Assembly (NCBI GenBank): GCA_030445745.1
Contig: JASUTE010000027.1
Coordinates: 1 to 18,365, forward strand
Origin: Candidatus Cloacimonadota bacterium
GTDB lineage: Bacteria; Cloacimonadota; Cloacimonadia; Cloacimonadales; TCS61
Length of the DNA: 18,365 nucleotides
Reading direction: 5' to 3'
A model generated the notes under the pieces. That model did no database searches. It worked only from the letters and a program-made list of their open reading frames with translations, and was not told the DNA's origin. Both the position numbers and the translations under genes were made by a program. Below, in pieces: positions 4,671 through 17,784 of the stretch; within the stretch, counting starts at the first letter, position 1; every line of letters begins with the position of its first letter.

Positions 4671-4981
4671 CTCTCCTCCTTTTTTTCTTGACTAATTAAT
4701 TAGAACTAATCTCCTATAAAGAAGGCATTTAATATGCCTACGATGGCCATGGGTTGAGGCTACCAAACTGAAACCCATGGTCTTTTCTTTATCCACAAAC
4801 GATTGAGTAAAATTTCAGAATTATTGTCAAACTATTTTTTACTAAAACCGGAAAAATATTACAGAATAGAGCTATTGAGTGCATCCAATTCAGAATTATT
4901 TCCGCAAATGGTAAAAAATATTTTGACAAAAAAGCTGGGTATGGGTTGGTTGACATAGGTAAGATAGTAAAAGGAGATGAG
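4671..4981. promoter_or_regulatory. Divergent intergenic region with hairpins and 12-bp direct repeat
   Basis: This region separates the 866-aa gene (-) from the winged-helix/M29 operon (+). It contains hairpin AGGCAT (4723-4728)/ATGCCT (4734-4739), hairpin CCATGGGTT (4747-4755)/AACCCATGG (4772-4780) followed on the + strand by TCTTTTCTTT, and two perfect copies of TTCAGAATTATT (4814-4825 and 4889-4900) 75 bases apart. The second hairpin could end antisense transcription or act in the 866-aa gene's leader. The direct repeats are candidate operator half-sites for the adjacent winged-helix protein. A TTGACA at 4923-4928 has no good -10 partner. Confidence 0.45.
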
Positions 4982-6361
4982 ATGATCAAAAATATCTTTG
5001 TTATCGATAAGCATGCTCAGATAAAAGCGCTTGGTTCTAAGTTAAAATTTCAGATCTTGAATGAGTTGATATTAAACCCAGCCACCTGCAAGCAATTAGC
5101 TGATATTTTCGGTATTAGCAAGCAGAAAACCCATTACAACCTTAAGAGTTTATTAGAGGTGGGACTAATAAAAATAGTTGAGATAGATCCCGCAAACAAT
5201 AAGGAAAAATATTATCGTGCTAAAGCCAAAAATTATGTAATAGATTTTTCGGTAGGTATGAATGCCAAGGGCAACAATAATAATCGAGAAATAATAAATT
5301 CGATATTAGATAAAGATTATGGCATAAAATTATCTAAGATAGCAGCTAAGATATTGGAACGCAGTTTACATCTTACCACCAAAGATAAGCTTTTGATAGT
5401 AACGGGCGAATATAATATGCCTTTGGTTAGCAAGATAATCTTGGAGGCTTCGAAAAGAAAGATTAGCACAACTATTATCTATCGTAATCGTGAAATTTTA
5501 AAATCAAAGCATGAAGATTATTCCCTAGCTGCCTTCAGTTGGGATTATGAACAATTTAATAATATGCTAAAGGAACATACTGCCTATTTGAATTTAAATG
5601 GCGAGTCACGTTATATTCCCCTGCATAATAAGAAAAAAATTGAGATCAGAGGCAAAGCTTTTGAAAAAAGTAGAGAGATAATTAACAAGAAAGGTATCAA
5701 GGTTGCTATGATGCCAGGTCTTATCCAAGATACCCTATCCGAAAACAATATTCAATCCGAAATTAACTTTTGGAAGGCTTTAGATGTTGATTATGACAGG
5801 CTTTATGAAAGCACTTATGAGCTTGCTAAAACCTTATTGAACTATGAGGATATCGAAGTTTCTACAGCTAATTCCTATTTCAATTTTAGTATTGATAAAA
5901 TTTTATGTGAATATGGTTCCTTTGTAGATAATTCCTTGCAGAGTCCGGTAATTAATATTCCCGGTGGTGAGATTTTGATAATTCCCAAACAAAATACATT
6001 TTCTGGAACTATTGGTGCTAAAATAGGATATATCTATGGCAAAAAGATCATCAATCCGCTAATAACGATAGATAATAACAAGATCACTTCCTATACAGCT
6101 ACAGAAAATTCCCATCTTATAGAAAAAGCAATAGAAGAGGGAGGCGAAAATAGCAATGAAGTCGCCTTAATTTGTTTAGGAACTAATTATAATATGCATC
6201 TCGAAAACATTGATAAATCATACAGAAATAAATCCAAGGGATTAATGACAATTTATTGGGGTGAGAATGCCTCACTGGGGGGAAAAGTTAAAAGCAATAT
6301 TGAATGGCATGTAGAATTAGAAAATCCACAAATAACTTATAAAAAAGGGAGAAAAAGATGA
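4982..6361 (+). CDS. Winged-helix regulator fused to an M29 aminopeptidase-like domain
   Basis: A 459-aa protein without signal peptide, so cytoplasmic. The chosen ATG has AAGGAG five bases upstream; an in-frame TTG at 4946 lacks one. In the longer numbering from that TTG, residues about 25-95 are an ArsR-like winged helix ([37 protein letters not shown]). Residues about 125-470 match the fold order of M29 metallo-aminopeptidases ([41 protein letters not shown]). Of the family's metal ligands only the Glu in PGGE (342) is clear. The Glu before the GTN block appears to be Leu408, the His of H-I-A-x-G appears to be Thr435, and H-x-D reads E-x-H (453-455). I infer a non-catalytic sensor domain, perhaps for a peptide. 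It overlaps the next gene by ATGA, so the two are co-transcribed. Confidence 0.75.
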
Positions 6362-9300
6362 AAAGGATTATTTTAGTACTTGGCTTACTGCTTTGTATAA
6401 CTGCAATTTATGCAGACTGGCAGTTGGAAACAAGTTTTGAGGCAGGTGAATTTCCAGCAGGCTGGCTAGCTTACGACGAAGATGGAGATGACCATATCTG
6501 GCAGGTTTACGAAAATACCGAATATGCCTATGAAGGTAATTATGCAGCTTTTGTAGATAACTATCTGCCAAATGAAAATGAAGATTGGTTGGTTACACCA
6601 GCTTTATCGATTAGTAGCGGCGATTCACTGAAGTTTTTTACCCGCTCCTGGTATAGTACCGAAAATTTAGAGGTGAAAATTTCAACAGCAAGTAATAATG
6701 TAGAGGATTTTGATGACACTATCTTAACTCTGGAAAATATAGACGAAGAATATTCAGAATACACAGTAGCTTTAAATGAATATGCTGACCAGGATGTTTA
6801 TTTAGCTTTTTATTGGGAATGTAATAGTTATGGCATTTTGCTTGATAATGTTAAAGTTGGCCAGCAAACCGGGATTGAAACAGAACTGGATTTGCCTGAA
6901 CAATTCAGCTTTATCCAGGGAGAACAACTACAGGTAGATTTTAGTCAATATATTACTGTTGCCGACCCCGAAGCTGCAACTCTTTCAGTTTCCGGAAACG
7001 AAAATGTAACGGTTTCAATTGAAGAATTTATGGTTACCTTCAGTTGCTCTGATTGGTTTGGTACAGAGACATTAACTTTCAGCCTTGATGACGGTGCTGG
7101 TAAAGAAATAGTTACCGATGAAGTTGAGATAGTGGTTGAGCCGATTCAGTATGTAGATCTTAGTATAGAAGAGATCAGTGCTCCCCAGCTGGTGGCATTA
7201 TTAAACCTGGAAAATCAGCCTGCGGTTGTTATAAAAAATGTTGGCGACCTGCCTATTACAGAAAGTTTCTTACTAAATTGCGAGATTACCGATGAGAGTG
7301 AAACCTTAGTATATGAAGACGAACTGGAATTCCTGGATGATCTAGCCGTAGGTGAAACAGCTGAACTCCAATTTGCAGCTTGGCAGCCAACTTTAACTGG
7401 AAATTATAACATAGAAATATCTCATCAGCTGCAAGATGATTTTACCACGAACAACAGTTTAAGCACTGCTATTACTGTAGCCGAGCATTTTGCTACCAGC
7501 GAACCAGACGGCTTCGGTTATCAGTGGATTAATAGCAATGCAGAAGATGGCCCCGAATTCGCTTGGATCGATATCAGTGAAACGGGTAGTTCAAGCATTA
7601 TGGCAGGTGTAGATCAATTTTATGGTGACGATAATTTCTCGGAACCAATAGAGATAGGATTTCCTTTTACGTTCTATGGAATAGACTATGATTCGATGTA
7701 TATTGATGTAAATGGCGAAATTTTGTTAGCCGAAAACACCTTTTATCAACCCTACCCCTCAGATGGCTGGGGTTCTGATGGTTTTATCTTTAACTATGTG
7801 TATCCAATCCCAGGGTTTGAAGCTGTTCCCGCTTTGATAGCCCCCTATTGGGATGATTTAGAAGCTATCGAAGGCACTGGTGATGTCTATTACCAAACTT
7901 TGGGCGAAAGCCCGAACCGCTATTGCGTGGTGCAGTGGCATAAGCTTAGATTCCATGCTGGTGATAATGAAACAGATAGCCTGGACTTTGAAGTGATCTT
8001 GCATGAAAATGGTGAGATCGTAATGCAATATAACAATGTTGCTACTGGCCAGTCAAATAGCAATGTACCCCATGATTATGGTCAAAGTGCAACTGTAGCT
8101 ATCCAAAATGAAGCTGCTACTATGGGTTTATGCTATTTACAAGAAGTTGTAGAGAATAATACCTATATGGGAGTGGAACCTTTAGGAAACATTTTACAAG
8201 ATAATTTAGCTATAAAATTTACAACTGGCGCAGATACCCAACCACCCTATATTACCCATGAAGAAGTTGGAAACACTTTTAATTCTAATGTTGAATTTAC
8301 TACAACTATTACCGATATGTCTGAACTTGAATCTGCTAACTTGCATTACAATTTAGGCAATGGTTGGGAAATAATCTCTTTCAGCGCTTTCACTGAGCCA
8401 AACATCTATACCTTTAGTTTAGATAATTTGGCAAGTGGTACAACTGTGGAATACTATTTCAGTGCTGAAGATATTTTGGGAAATAGTTCTGTTTTACCAG
8501 AAACAGCTCCGGAGGATACTTACAGCTTCCAAGTACTTCCCAATGCAGGAAACTCAGTCTTGTTATGTTATCCTGGTAGTATGGATTATAATAATACTGA
8601 ACTACCACTCTATGAAGAGGTATTGGCTGATCTTGATATTTCCTACGATAAATATGATTGGCAAGAATATGCTGAGTTTGAATTACCACATACTTATGAA
8701 GCAATAATAGTTTATGCCAACACAGGCTCAAATTCACCAGAATTGCAATTACTAAGCCAAGAGCTGATGAATTATATGGATGCTGGTTCTGAAGAAGAAC
8801 CTAATAATGTCCTTTTTGTTTCCGATAATTTTGCCTCTGCCCAACATGGTCAACCAAATTCAAGTCCCCGCAAGAAATTACTTACTGCCTATTTTAGGAC
8901 TTCTTATATAGCTACTGGATTAGGTGGCGGAACTAACGGACTAGGCGGCCCAGACTGTTATGACTATGAAGAAGGAAGCATCATGGCTTTAGATGATTCA
9001 CCAATCGGAACCTCAGGCATTGAATATGATGTCTATGCCAATTCTCCGGATTGTCTTTTCGAAAAAGATGCCTGCCCAGCTTGGTATGAAGATGAGGTAA
9101 TCAACCCCGAGATCCCTTCCCATAACGCCTTTGTATTCGAAGATGGGCCTATTAACGGTCAGGCTTACTTATACCATGGTGTTTGCGCTACCTGGATAGA
9201 TAACTTGATTTACAAGGGATTCTACTTTAGCTTTGATTTTTCTCAGTTAGATGAATATGAGGATCGTAAAATGTTTTTGGAAGAGGCGCTGGTATGGTTT

Positions 9301-9624
9301 GACATTATAAATGTTGAAAATGACCCCGCAGAAGAGCTTCCTAACAACAAAGTTATTATGTCGCAAAATTATCCTAATCCATTTAACCCTACCACTTCGA
9401 TCGAGTTCTCTATTCCCCATAGTAGTAAAGTTGAATTAGCTATTTATAATCTAAAAGGACAAGTTGTGAAAACTTTAGTAAGCCGCAATTTGGCAGCAGG
9501 GAATCATATAGTAAACTGGAATGGGAAAGATAATACAGGAAATCAGGTTAGCAGTGGCGTTTATTTCTATAAACTGCAAACCGCGAATGCTAACATCACT
9601 AAAAAAATGCTGTTAATGAAATAG
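6358..9624 (+). CDS. Giant secreted surface protein with T9SS type A sorting domain
   Basis: A 1088-aa exported protein. Residues 1-19 are a signal peptide ending YA before [11 protein letters not shown]. Domains in order: choice-of-anchor J (21-168: [25 protein letters not shown]), a cadherin-like Ig fold (about 175-262), a CARDB-like module (about 264-375: [20 protein letters not shown]), a nidogen-like module (about 385-625: [31 protein letters not shown]), an Ig-like module (about 626-725), an unrecognised block (about 730-985), then the sorting domain (1004-1088: [32 protein letters not shown]). Its N-terminal module is of the same type as those in the divergent 866-aa protein. The ATG overlaps the upstream stop, and GGGAG lies six bases before it inside the upstream gene, suggesting translational coupling. 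No proven enzyme motif; adhesin or extracellular binding protein is inferred. Confidence 0.85.
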
Positions 9625-10258: not shown

Positions 10259-10459
10259 ATGGCAACAAACTTAGCTCTTGATCCTAAATTAATAATTGAA
10301 GCTCAAAAAATTGGAGGATTTAAAACAAAAAAAGAAACTGTTAATACAGCTTTATTGGAATACATACAAAGACATAAACAACTGGAAATTATTGAACTTT
10401 TTGGTTCGATAAAATATGACCCTGAATATAACTATAAAGAAGGACGAAATAGAAGATGA
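10259..10459 (+). CDS. vapB: VapB-type antitoxin
   Basis: A 66-aa antitoxin of a type II toxin-antitoxin pair. The N-terminal part (MATNLALDPKLIIEAQKIGG, then FKTKKETVNTALLEYIQRHK) has the VapB ribbon-helix-helix pattern, expected to bind DNA as a dimer and autoregulate. The tail (FGSIKYDPEYNYKEGR) matches the toxin-binding C-terminus of this VapB subfamily. The ATG was chosen because GGAGG at 10249-10253 lies five bases upstream; an in-frame ATG at 10226 would add 11 residues without such a site. The last bases overlap vapC by ATGA. Confidence 0.9.
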   Translation: MATNLALDPKLIIEAQKIGGFKTKKETVNTALLEYIQRHKQLEIIELFGSIKYDPEYNYKEGRNRR

Positions 10460-10878
10460 AAGTGTTAGTTGATACATCTATCTGGTTCTTAGCCTTAAGA
10501 AAAAAGAAAACACAATTAAACAAAACTCAAATTTTAATAGTTGAAGAATTAATCGAGTTAATCAATGAATCTAGAGTTGTATTGATCGGCCCCGTTCGAC
10601 AAGAAATTCTGTCTGGAATAGTTTCAAAATCTCAATTTCAGAAGCTAAAAGCAAAATTTAGGGCTTTCGAAGATTTTCCCATAAATCAAAGAGATTATGA
10701 ATTAGCTGCTGAATTTTATAACATTTGTCGTAAAAATGGAGTTAAAGGTTCTCATATTGATTTTCTAATCTGCTCTACTTCATATAATCATAAGTTTTCA
10801 ATATTTACAACAGATAAGGATTTTGAGAATTATTCAAAACATTTAAATATTTCGATTCATAGTGTTCGTAAGAAATGA
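10456..10878 (+). CDS. vapC: VapC-type PIN-domain ribonuclease toxin
   Basis: A 140-aa PIN domain, the usual VapC size. These toxins are Mg-dependent endoribonucleases, commonly cutting tRNA or rRNA, and are held inactive by VapB. The acidic residues are present: D6 in VLVDTSIWF, E50 in PVRQEILSG, D102 in GSHIDFLICSTS, and D120/D122 in FTTDKDF. The catalytic set looks intact. The start overlaps the vapB stop (ATGA), so translation is coupled. The pair sits in a repeat-rich accessory stretch with IS remains, as is common for mobile toxin-antitoxin modules. Confidence 0.93.
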   Translation: MKVLVDTSIWFLALRKKKTQLNKTQILIVEELIELINESRVVLIGPVRQEILSGIVSKSQFQKLKAKFRAFEDFPINQRDYELAAEFYNICRKNGVKGSHIDFLICSTSYNHKFSIFTTDKDFENYSKHLNISIHSVRKK

Positions 10879-14370: not shown

Positions 14371-14871
14371 CCAGATTTCATCACAATTGATGGCAGACCT
14401 GGGGCAACAGGGGCATCTCCTAAATTTGTCAAAGCATCAACATCTGTTCCTACATTATTTGCTTTATATAGAGCAAGAAAATTTCTAGATGAAAAAGATA
14501 GAAAGGATATTTCTTTGATAATTACGGGCGGATTAAGAGTATCTGCGGATTTTGCAAAAGCCCTTGCACTAGGAGCAGATGCTATTGCTATTGGGACAGC
14601 AGCACTTATGGCTACTGCATGCCAGCAGTATAGAATATGTGATTCTGGGAACTGTCCGGTTGGTGTTACTACCCAAGAGCCTGAACTGAGAAAACGATTA
14701 AAAATTGACATTTCTGCAAAGAAATTAGAATTTTTTTTTAAAGTATCAACAGCCGAATTAAAGGATTTTGCTAGACTTACTGGAAATAATGATGTTCATA
14801 AGTTAAATATTAAAGATTTATGCACTACCAATTCTGAAATATCAAGATTCACTGATATTAAACACGTTTAA
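14371..14871 (+). pseudogene. gltB: 3' fragment of glutamate synthase (FMN-binding domain)
   Basis: An open frame of about 166 aa matches the C-terminal part of the glutamate synthase alpha/beta-barrel: DFITIDGRPGATGASP, LIITGGLRVSADFAKALALG, ADAIAIGTAALMATACQQYR, and the cysteine region CDSGNCPVGVTTQEPELRKR. In intact enzymes this part binds FMN and the Fe-S cluster and makes glutamate from 2-oxoglutarate and ammonia. The frame is closed by a TAA at 14344 just before the homology and has no normal start, so about two thirds of a ~500-aa archaeal-type GltB (or more of a long one) is missing. The C-terminus (DLCTTNSEISRFTDI) seems natural. Confidence 0.85.
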
Positions 14872-15065: not shown

Positions 15066-16406
15066 CTAAATCGCCAAGCGATTTTTCGAATGTTTCCCCT
15101 TTTCTTCCGCTACCAGCGAGGGTAAGCTGATACTTCGTTCCATTCCCGCGATAATATTATGTTCGCTTACCCGCGCATACAAACCGCTGAAATTTCCCTG
15201 GTAAGCAAAAAGTCCTACAGTGGTTTTAAACGGTTTAAATACAAAAGTTCCATTTTGGAAAACCGGCATTTCTCTCTGCGTAAAATTACAAAATTCCTGC
15301 AGCAGAAATTCATCCTTCTCTTTCGCTTTAGCTACCTGGTTTTTCCACTCATCCTCTGTGCAATCCAATCCGCATACAACGCCTTTTCCGCCATAAAAAT
15401 CTTTGGGCTTGATGACATAAGCATCTTTGTTATCTAACGCTAATTGGCAATGTTTCTCGTTCAATTGCCATGTTTGGGGGATATGTTTGGTGATAAATTG
15501 TCGTTCTTCGGAATTTAGAAATCCGGTTTTATTTTCATCCGACAAAATGGAAAAAAAGGTTTTGTTATGCATAATCTGCGAGCGAAACGGACCCACTACG
15601 CAAACCGCTCTATCTTTATACGCTTGGATAAAATCACCTACTTCATGCAGCCGTTTCTCCATCTCCTGATTCACAGCTCTACGATATACTAAATCTATAG
15701 GCAACTTGCCAAAATAAAGCCTCCCGTTCTTATATTTCATCTCTCTCGGGTCGCAAATAACAGTTGTATAGCCACCTTTTTCAAAAACAGTTTGGAAAGT
15801 TTTAAATTCTTCGGACGTTCCTAAACCGCTAAAATCCACAATCGCAATGTTCGGTTTTCTGGTCCCGCCAAATTCCTGATAGATTTGCAAAAGCGCTTCT
15901 AGCCAAGAATGAAAAAGCTCAAAGTTATAGATTCGATATGTTTTCTGCAGTTCACGAATGATATCTGATTCCAAAAATATCCTTTCCAGCGTATTGGCTT
16001 CATTCATTGCCGAAGTTCCATCTCCATTCAGTTCACAAAATGAATAATTCCCATCGTAAAAAATATCTAACCGGGCAATAGGGGCAGCGCAGGAATAACC
16101 TGGGTCGATTAATATCAATTCTTCCATTTGATTGCTGAAGCCGAAATATTTTCGAAAGGCTGGGTTTTGCAAATATTCTTCAACACATTTTTGAATAATC
16201 CCCATCATCCGCTTGCAGATATTCTGGAAGTTTTGTACATCTTCTTGGTCAAAAAACATAGGCTGATACAGGAAATTAACAGTTTTACCCTTGTATTTTG
16301 CATTGGATTGTTTCATTTTTCTGATTATCTTGCGAAAATCCGAACTGAATTTTTCCGGATTCTGTTCTATTCGTTTTCTATACTCATCAAATATCTTCTT
16401 CTGCAA
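15066..16406 (-). CDS. ATP-grasp ligase, glutathionylspermidine synthase-like
   Basis: A 446-aa cytoplasmic protein resembling the circularly permuted ATP-grasp/glutathionylspermidine synthase group, which joins an amine to a peptide carboxylate via an acyl phosphate. Visible motifs: ARLDIFYDGNYSFCELNGDG (111-130) and MNEAN, which fit the R-x-D and E-x-N metal/substrate residues; VVGPFRSQIMHNKTFF (270-285); and the nucleotide loop AYVIKPKDFYGGKGVVCG (329-346). A C-terminal GLYARVSEHNII (408-419) resembles the family's GxYxRxS end. The TTG start has GGAGG seven bases upstream and a stop lies just above in frame. It follows the glutamate-cysteine ligase gene by 154 bases on the same strand. The final residues (KHSKNRLAI) are encoded over a short inverted repeat and may not be ancestral. 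Confidence 0.75.
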   Translation of the reverse strand: MQKKIFDEYRKRIEQNPEKFSSDFRKIIRKMKQSNAKYKGKTVNFLYQPMFFDQEDVQNFQNICKRMMGIIQKCVEEYLQNPAFRKYFGFSNQMEELILIDPGYSCAAPIARLDIFYDGNYSFCELNGDGTSAMNEANTLERIFLESDIIRELQKTYRIYNFELFHSWLEALLQIYQEFGGTRKPNIAIVDFSGLGTSEEFKTFQTVFEKGGYTTVICDPREMKYKNGRLYFGKLPIDLVYRRAVNQEMEKRLHEVGDFIQAYKDRAVCVVGPFRSQIMHNKTFFSILSDENKTGFLNSEERQFITKHIPQTWQLNEKHCQLALDNKDAYVIKPKDFYGGKGVVCGLDCTEDEWKNQVAKAKEKDEFLLQEFCNFTQREMPVFQNGTFVFKPFKTTVGLFAYQGNFSGLYARVSEHNIIAGMERSISLPSLVAEEKGKHSKNRLAI

Positions 16407-16440
16407 AATCTCCTCCGTATCTTCTTCTTATAAACATTTT

Positions 16441-16485
16441 GTCATTATGAGGTAAGCGGCAACGAAATCAAGCGACACAATCTCA
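16441..16485. repeat. Diverged REP-like element between two operon genes
   Basis: GTCATTATGAGG...GCGACACAATCTCA has the layout of the GTCATTGCGA...GAAGCAATCT element seen at 109-141, with several substitutions. It lies in the 154-base gap between the two minus-strand ligase genes, where it may have inserted into the operon. Confidence 0.5.
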
Positions 16486-16560
16486 TACTCAACGAAAAAA
16501 GATGATTTGGCGCGAGGCTAGGAATATCTAACACAAGAATATTCATGCTTAGCGAATTAC

Positions 16561-17784
16561 CTAATAGGCTGTCCTAAACTTTCTAAAGCGGGGTATGATT
16601 CCTGTTTCTACAATCTCCTGATTCCATTTTTGAAACAAGTTATCAGCAGGAATGAGTTCCATAATTTCAGAAAAATGCTCTAAAATGGTTTTCCCGACAT
16701 ATTGTGCTTGAATCCCTTTTTGAATGATTTCCAATTTTGCCTGCTGAATCTCCTGCAATCCGATATTTTCCAGTAAATGATGCACTTTTTGGAATATAGA
16801 AGCATTGTAAAAGATAATATAAACCAATTCTATGAAGGCAAAATTAAGCGGATATGGCAGCGAATCCGTCATACGAAGCTCAAGATATTTTCGCGCCCGC
16901 ACATCCGGGAAACACATGGAAAAAACATGATTCAGTTGCGCTTCAATATCACCATTCAAATCAAAGACATCCTTAAATGGCCTCTGTGAGGATACAATAT
17001 TATTTTTCTTATCGGTAATGAGAATAGGAACTAAATTCAGGATATATTCAGCGTATTTTTCATATCCAAAATCGACAGCGAAAATCTGCGGAATAATCCC
17101 GCAACGCTGTTCATCACAATGGTTCCAAATCAAGGTTCGCAAACAAAAGTCCTGATATTCTTCACCTTCAAATACGTTGCTGTTATCATAAATGGCACTA
17201 AAGATAGGAGTTAAACGAGATGCCAAACGCATTTTTTGCACAAAATCCTCTTCCTTGGAATAATCTACCGCAACTTGTATAGATGCAGTTCCTTTCATCA
17301 TATTATGAGCATATTTACCGGTTTTGCAAAAATAATCATACATAAATCGATACCGCTTTTTAGGCAGCATTTCAATTTCAGAAATTGTACTTTTGGGAAG
17401 ATAACCCGATGAATAAAGCATTTGATTACGTGACTGTAAAATGGGAGTTAACTGCTCAATAAAATCTAAAAAGACCTTTTGCAAAGTAGCAATATTCGTT
17501 TGAGGGTATAAACTGATTTCCCATTGCGCTCCCGGTTCCAAACTGATAGCTAATTTTTCATTTTGAATACCAATTACATGTTCTGCTTCTAGAATCGGCT
17601 GAAATCCATAGTTCAGCAGCTCTTTTAGAATAAGTTCAATCCCGTTTTTGAAAGGAAGACTTTTCTTTGTAGCTTTATCGACAATGAAATATTCCAATTC
17701 TGCTCCGTGCAGAAAGTGATGTTCCGGAGTTTCACCTTTCTGCATATATGCTTTGATAGCTGCTATCTGTTTTTTATTTTCCAT
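16561..17784 (-). CDS. Glutamate-cysteine ligase-like protein (GCS2 family)
   Basis: A 407-aa enzyme of the carboxylate-amine ligase superfamily, predicted to form a gamma-glutamyl bond, normally Glu + Cys + ATP to gamma-glutamylcysteine, in the cytoplasm. Motifs in order: FLHGAELEYFIVD (24-36, metal-binding acids), LAISLEPGAQWEISLYPQ (78-95), KRYRFMYDYFCKTGKYAHNM (143-162), MMKGTASIQVAVDYS (162-176), IFSAIYDNSN (194-203) and EQRCGIIP (225-232). This pattern is that of plant/alphaproteobacterial-type GCS2 and EgtA-like enzymes. The ATG has AAGGA about nine bases upstream. The next gene on the strand is an ATP-grasp ligase, so the two may act in sequence as a GshA-like and GshB-like pair. The acceptor amino acid cannot be read from sequence. 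Confidence 0.82.
   Translation of the reverse strand: MENKKQIAAIKAYMQKGETPEHHFLHGAELEYFIVDKATKKSLPFKNGIELILKELLNYGFQPILEAEHVIGIQNEKLAISLEPGAQWEISLYPQTNIATLQKVFLDFIEQLTPILQSRNQMLYSSGYLPKSTISEIEMLPKKRYRFMYDYFCKTGKYAHNMMKGTASIQVAVDYSKEEDFVQKMRLASRLTPIFSAIYDNSNVFEGEEYQDFCLRTLIWNHCDEQRCGIIPQIFAVDFGYEKYAEYILNLVPILITDKKNNIVSSQRPFKDVFDLNGDIEAQLNHVFSMCFPDVRARKYLELRMTDSLPYPLNFAFIELVYIIFYNASIFQKVHHLLENIGLQEIQQAKLEIIQKGIQAQYVGKTILEHFSEIMELIPADNLFQKWNQEIVETGIIPRFRKFRTAY

Follow-up and report, generated by a model that had tools for sequence, protein, structure and literature searches.

A winged helix fused to a degenerate M29 aminopeptidase fold: a putative one-component regulator of a secreted-protein operon in Cloacimonadota

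What does a protein do that carries a DNA-binding domain in front of an aminopeptidase fold which appears to have lost its metal ligands? The question is raised by a gene in an 18,365-nucleotide stretch of DNA from a Candidatus Cloacimonadota bacterium (contig JASUTE010000027.1), referred to here as the window. A first-pass annotation, made from the letters and the open reading frames alone, had described the product as an ArsR-like DNA-binding domain joined to a full-length M29-like domain, and had suggested that it is a dead peptidase used as the sensor of a one-component regulator. The gene and its domains are located as follows.

4971–4976, + strand: Shine-Dalgarno sequence AAGGAG of the putative regulator gene
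4982–6361, + strand: gene of the HTH-M29 pseudo-aminopeptidase, the putative regulator; ORF of 459 aa with ATG start
5012–5242, + strand: winged helix-turn-helix, residues 11–87 (Pfam, predicted structure, orthologue alignment)
5294–6346, + strand: M29-fold domain, residues about 105–455 (Pfam, hhalign, predicted structure)

The domain assignment was borne out both by Pfam and by the predicted structure. HTH_20 matched residues 17–65 (E 8.7e-9), and Peptidase_M29 matched in two stretches above the gathering score (E 2.3e-12). The AlphaFold model, for which 37 orthologues were used as input, had a mean pLDDT of 88.7 and a pTM of 0.79 and consisted of a winged helix and a complete M29 fold. When compared with known structures (Foldseek, VIA-align), residues 105–459 of the model aligned to PepS (4icr) over 336 residues with a Z of 25.7 and an rmsd of 3.3, to NicX with a Z of 25.3, and to AmpT and AmpS, the superpositions proposed at the outset, with Z values of 24.8 and 23.4; the match to CgnE and CgnB was weaker (Z 13–14). 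Residues 9–90 matched ArsR-type winged helices with a Z of about 11, and PH1932 was aligned to residues 1–97 with an E value of 3e-8. The NCBIfam metalloregulator model NF033788 scored 21.4 bits, which is under its cut-off of 55. In the recognition helix Q48, K49, H51 and Y52 were invariant in the 37 orthologues, and K47 was present in 36. No other M29-family protein is encoded in the genome from which the window comes, which measures 2.04 Mb and is 99 % complete. A search of IMG/VR with the protein gave no relative.

The catalytic Tyr of AmpS is Y355. It is known that in AmpS Glu253 and His348 hold one metal and His381 and Asp383 the other, with Glu319 bridging the two, and that two M29 enzymes of Listeria, LmAmpII and Lmo1603, cannot do without any one of the equivalent residues (PMC4661694, PMC7023490). 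We mapped the ligands by aligning a profile of the 37 orthologues to a profile of 18 unfused M29 proteins with hhalign. The two profiles aligned with a probability of 99.7 % (E 1.5e-25) over residues 123–453, and the E, E, H, H and D columns, all five of which were present in 18/18 unfused proteins, paired with the following positions (hhalign, orthologue tally).

5969–5971, + strand: E330, first M29 Glu ligand, kept
6167–6169, + strand: L396, replaces the bridging Glu ligand
6248–6250, + strand: T423, replaces a His ligand; Thr or Ser in all orthologues
6302–6304, + strand: E441, replaces the His of H-x-D; the position is Glu in every orthologue and part of an invariant E-W pair
6308–6310, + strand: H443, replaces the Asp of H-x-D; variable among orthologues

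The by-eye reading of the first-pass annotation, in which the Glu of the PGGE block alone is kept and the other ligands read Leu, Thr and E-x-H, agrees exactly with this profile alignment. The PGGE block of M29 aminopeptidases is retained in the window protein, and position 330 is Glu in 35 and Asp in 2 of the 37 orthologues. The substitutions themselves proved to be conserved: Leu was found in 31 orthologues at position 396, with Glu in none, position 423 was Thr in 17 and Ser in 20, and position 441 was Glu in all 37. Position 443 varied (F15, Q13, Y3, S2, I2, H1, M1) and was never Asp. N206, E208, N402, D411, N429 and E441 were invariant in the M29 domain. Since the altered residues are kept across the 37 orthologues, the degenerate site is itself conserved. 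For ten closely related pairs the dN/dS ratio over the full length of the gene was 0.04–0.15, with similar values for both domains; this, together with the orthologue conservation, rules out a pseudogene or recent decay. Judged from these alignments, the sensor-like half is an aminopeptidase whose metal-binding site was lost long ago. Its fold places it in the M29 superfamily; its ligands are not those of an M29 peptidase.

The loss is not confined to the close orthologues. Orthologues were collected by a profile scan of genome contigs, and the fusion proteins fall into three clades with identical domain order, so that the search for other HTH-M29 fusions added two further clades, one of them in another phylum. 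Clade 1 comprises the 37 orthologues, which are 42–57 % identical to the window protein and occur in two families of its order and in two genomes from another family of its class. Its named records are from Cloacimonadota, apart from one titled Armatimonadota, and the regulator is present in 48 of the 121 Cloacimonadota genomes. Clade 2 (15 proteins of 480–495 aa, with an identity of about 22 % to the window protein) belongs to another family, f13, of the same class and co-occurs with clade 1 in two genomes. Clade 3 (13 proteins of about 500 aa) was found in another small phylum, where 15 of 20 genomes carry it, incomplete copies counted. The five ligand columns read PGGM/L, S, S/T, I/V and Q in clade 2 and K, G, A/T, S and G in clade 3, with none of the ligands kept. 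The dead-peptidase claim is thus strongly supported, four of five ligands being gone in 37/37 clade 1 proteins and all five in the other two clades. No intact M29 site was found among the 65 HTH-fused proteins; neither an intact fusion homologue nor an alignment that restores the ligands, the outcomes which would have argued for an active enzyme, turned up. When the M29 domains were placed in a maximum-likelihood tree, every clade stood on a long stem with 100/100 support; the tree would allow all three to have arisen from one fusion event. A fourth HTH-M29 clade was not found in two overlapping domain-wide samples of 386 bacterial genomes each. Two other kinds of M29-like protein were observed during the scan: a further degenerate M29 family of single-domain proteins from Cloacimonadota, about 350 aa long, with neither metal ligands nor HTH (L092, L093, L139, L140, L148), and proteins of about 690 aa that match the M29 profile in part (positions about 108–406), widespread in Cloacimonadota and present also in other phyla (for example G040:C23:5561-6436 and G063:C4:24671-25393).

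The gene order downstream of the putative regulator is conserved as well. In the window its stop codon overlaps the next gene by 4 bp.

6358–9624, + strand: gene of a secreted protein of 1088 aa in the same operon; 4-bp overlap (ATGA) with the regulator stop

The same secreted protein of about 1086 aa is encoded by the next same-strand gene in 34 of the 36 clade 1 loci that have sequence downstream, usually after a gap of 2–22 bp, and where complete these proteins are 44–50 % identical over about 1090 aa. The 1088-aa protein has a signal peptide-like start and a choice-of-anchor J/cleaved-adhesin domain at its N-terminus, a C-terminal domain with a class-I GATase/ThuA-like fold, and a T9SS sorting tail at its end; the T9SS translocon protein SprA is encoded in the window's genome. 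A third secreted protein, of about 555 aa, comes next in many clade 1 loci. In the complete genome G048 the third operon gene is split over two frames (L203:7531-9308), possibly by a frameshift.

The neighbours of the other clades are secreted proteins too. The clade 2 regulator lies 14–26 bp upstream of the gene of a secreted C25 (gingipain-family) peptidase in 10 of 12 loci, and such a gene is within a few genes of it in 12/12. In several clade 3 loci the genes downstream, less tightly placed, are those of secreted proteins that carry an InhA-like MAM domain. That the downstream protein of clade 1 is likewise a C25 peptidase was ruled out by the class-I GATase/ThuA-like fold of its C-terminal domain; with a GATase-like domain and no peptidase in its partner, clade 1 is without a direct link to peptides.

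Elsewhere in the window, a PIN-domain (VapC-like) protein is encoded at 10456–10878, and a 118-aa ORF at 14515–14871 resembles the last portion of a glutamate synthase-type FMN domain and looks truncated. On the minus strand, at 15066–17784, a GCS2-type glutamate-cysteine ligase gene adjoins a circularly permuted ATP-grasp gene, possibly a glutathione-like or peptide-ligase pair.

Upstream of the clade 1 operons a 17-bp palindrome of fixed length, GTCWA-N7-TTGAC, was found as an exact match in 26 of 35 upstream regions, with near matches in most of the others; in 200 dinucleotide shuffles the mean was 0.1 and the maximum 2. The extended consensus is TRGTCWAAANNTTYTTGACNA. The window has two near copies.

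4826–4842, no strand assigned: second putative operator, GTCAAACTATTTTTTAC, 1 mismatch
4911–4927, no strand assigned: putative operator, GTAAAAAATATTTTGAC, 1 mismatch to GTCWA-N7-TTGAC

In the whole window these are the only one-mismatch matches to GTCAA-N7-TTGAC, and both fall within the 311 bp that precede the regulator. The stringent form, GTCAAAAANWTYTTGAC, occurred in 20 of the 121 genomes of the phylum, and all 20 are among the 48 that have the regulator (P 5e-10); the same pattern written backwards, as a control, gave five scattered matches. Nineteen of the 22 stringent sites are immediately ahead of the regulator; one of these precedes a second copy cut by a contig end. The remaining three, in one genus, are about 340–390 bp upstream of the gene of a 917-aa paralogue of the third operon protein (about 50 % identity over 500 aa), and there about 30 bp are conserved between flanks that cannot be aligned. 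Between these detached sites and the paralogue (L200–L202) a start context, GATAAGGANTTTATGAAGATG, is kept ahead of unconserved ORFs of about 90 aa. A widespread regulon based on the loose palindrome was ruled out because its genome-wide count was at control level; taken with the genome distribution of the stringent site, this points to a very small regulon tied to this regulator. The right arm, TTGAC(A), resembles a -35 hexamer in many clade 1 loci and could double as one, which would fit repression; no sigma-70-like promoter was found upstream of the regulator in the window. The palindrome could be bound by some other regulator instead. Inspection by eye of the last 130 bp upstream of clade 2 revealed no such palindrome, only a G+C-rich hairpin, which comes after the preceding gene and before the start of the regulator (L192–L199, L083–L085, L096).

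Taken together, we propose that the protein is a one-component regulator of its own operon, likely a repressor, whose M29-derived half brings about dimerisation and probably takes up a ligand, and we give this reading a probability of about 0.65. As far as sequence comparison can carry it, the regulator part of the first-pass suggestion gains support from the conserved operon, the conserved upstream palindrome and the small regulon. The winged helix, as a dimer, would recognise TRGTCWA-N7-TTGACNA, the palindrome ahead of the operon, and autorepression would be the simplest reading. The M29 domain most likely provides the dimer, because M29 peptidases are dimeric (PMC10070186). Its pocket, for which N206, E208, E330, N402, D411, N429 and E441 would supply a conserved acidic and polar lining, probably binds a small ligand (a peptide, amino acid or amine), and ligand binding would alter the affinity for DNA. 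The targets would be the regulator itself, the T9SS-type secreted protein of about 1086 aa and often the third secreted protein as well; one genus would add the detached paralogue of the third gene.

It is also conceivable that the protein regulates its own operon with the M29-derived domain as a dimerisation scaffold that takes no ligand, control being by protein level alone. The extensive dimer interfaces of M29 peptidases (PMC10070186) and the palindromic operator would suit such a scaffold, but the invariant N206, E208, N402, D411, N429 and E441, together with the E330 column (E35/D2), seem to exceed what a scaffold needs, and we consider this reading unlikely. We regard it as less probable still that the protein is a metalloregulator with a new metal site made up of E208, E330 and E441: the winged helix is ArsR-like and the three Glu residues are conserved in the M29 domain of clade 1, yet clades 2 and 3 have no Glu in the 330 or 441 columns and the NCBIfam metalloregulator model stayed far under its cut-off (21 versus 55 bits).

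Two readings would leave the domain as a working enzyme. NicX, an M29-fold dioxygenase, ranks with the best structural matches at a Z of 25, from which it follows that the M29 fold is able to change its chemistry. However, its ligands are His265, Ser302, His318 and Asp320 (PMC7910607), while the window protein has E-x-H for H-x-D and all orthologues have Thr or Ser for the other His, so that a domain with some other chemistry appears very improbable. A trigger enzyme, in which a still active M29 aminopeptidase has gained a DNA-binding domain, would agree with a Peptidase_M29 match above the Pfam gathering score; it is hardly credible when every ligand is essential in LmAmpII and Lmo1603 and four of five are lost in all orthologues.

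As ligand of the proposed regulator a peptide or an amine is plausible by analogy, based on the M29 fold itself, on the peptide-binding CgnB and CgnE, and on the position of clade 2 beside genes of secreted peptidases. By that position clade 2 would control a secreted endopeptidase whose products would fit an M29 pocket. A wider idea, which we put forward tentatively and would not expect to hold in full, is that the dead M29 domain serves as a peptide sensor in at least two phyla, coupling peptide supply to T9SS-secreted surface proteins and, in clade 2, to gingipain-type peptidases. If true, this would amount to a feedback loop: the peptidase would be under the control of a sensor derived from the kind of enzyme that would use up what the peptidase releases.

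Our literature searches of open-access papers found no paper on an HTH-M29 fusion or on an M29 peptidase as the sensor of a transcription factor. With a DNA-binding domain joined to a dead aminopeptidase, a conserved operon and a palindrome, the protein looks like a kind of regulator not previously described. Former enzymes are known as sensors of transcription factors, and the M29 fold in that role appears to be new; it would be a third re-use of this fold, besides CgnB/CgnE and NicX. The regulator would also offer a first way into the control of type IX secretion cargo in Cloacimonadota, where genetic work is almost absent. A direct test is within reach, as the putative operator is short and conserved, the regulon consists of one operon and tens of natural variants are at hand.

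Among known systems, the M29 aminopeptidases AmpT (2ayi), AmpS (1zjc) and PepS (4icr) share the whole fold with the window protein (Z 23–26 over about 335 residues) and the PGGE block, but the window protein is without four of the five metal ligands and has an N-terminal winged helix and a conserved putative operator upstream. With the ArsR/MarR-type regulators PH1932 (1uly) and CzrA it shares the winged helix (Z 9–11, CzrA about 11), whereas it has an M29 domain of 350 residues in place of a small dimer or sensor domain. 2,5-Dihydroxypyridine dioxygenase NicX (7cn3, 7cup; Z 25) is likewise an M29-like fold put to another use. It is an active Fe(II) enzyme with His/Ser/His/Asp ligands, which appear absent in the window protein, judged from its E-x-H in place of H-x-D. 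CgnB and CgnE of crocagin biosynthesis are derived from M29, bind peptide and have no aminopeptidase activity, and the metal site of CgnE is broken (PMC10070186). The window protein is similarly M29-derived and without a peptidase site; CgnB and CgnE, in contrast, are distant in fold (Z 13–14), monomeric and without a DNA-binding domain, and they act in RiPP biosynthesis. MocR has been described as a regulator made of an HTH and a former enzyme (PMC6677901). With its DNA-binding domain fused to a degenerate enzyme domain, the window protein would follow the same logic as the one-component regulators ROK, MocR/GabR and NrtR, whose enzyme domain is dead or borrowed. To our knowledge the M29 peptidase is used by no regulator of that kind.
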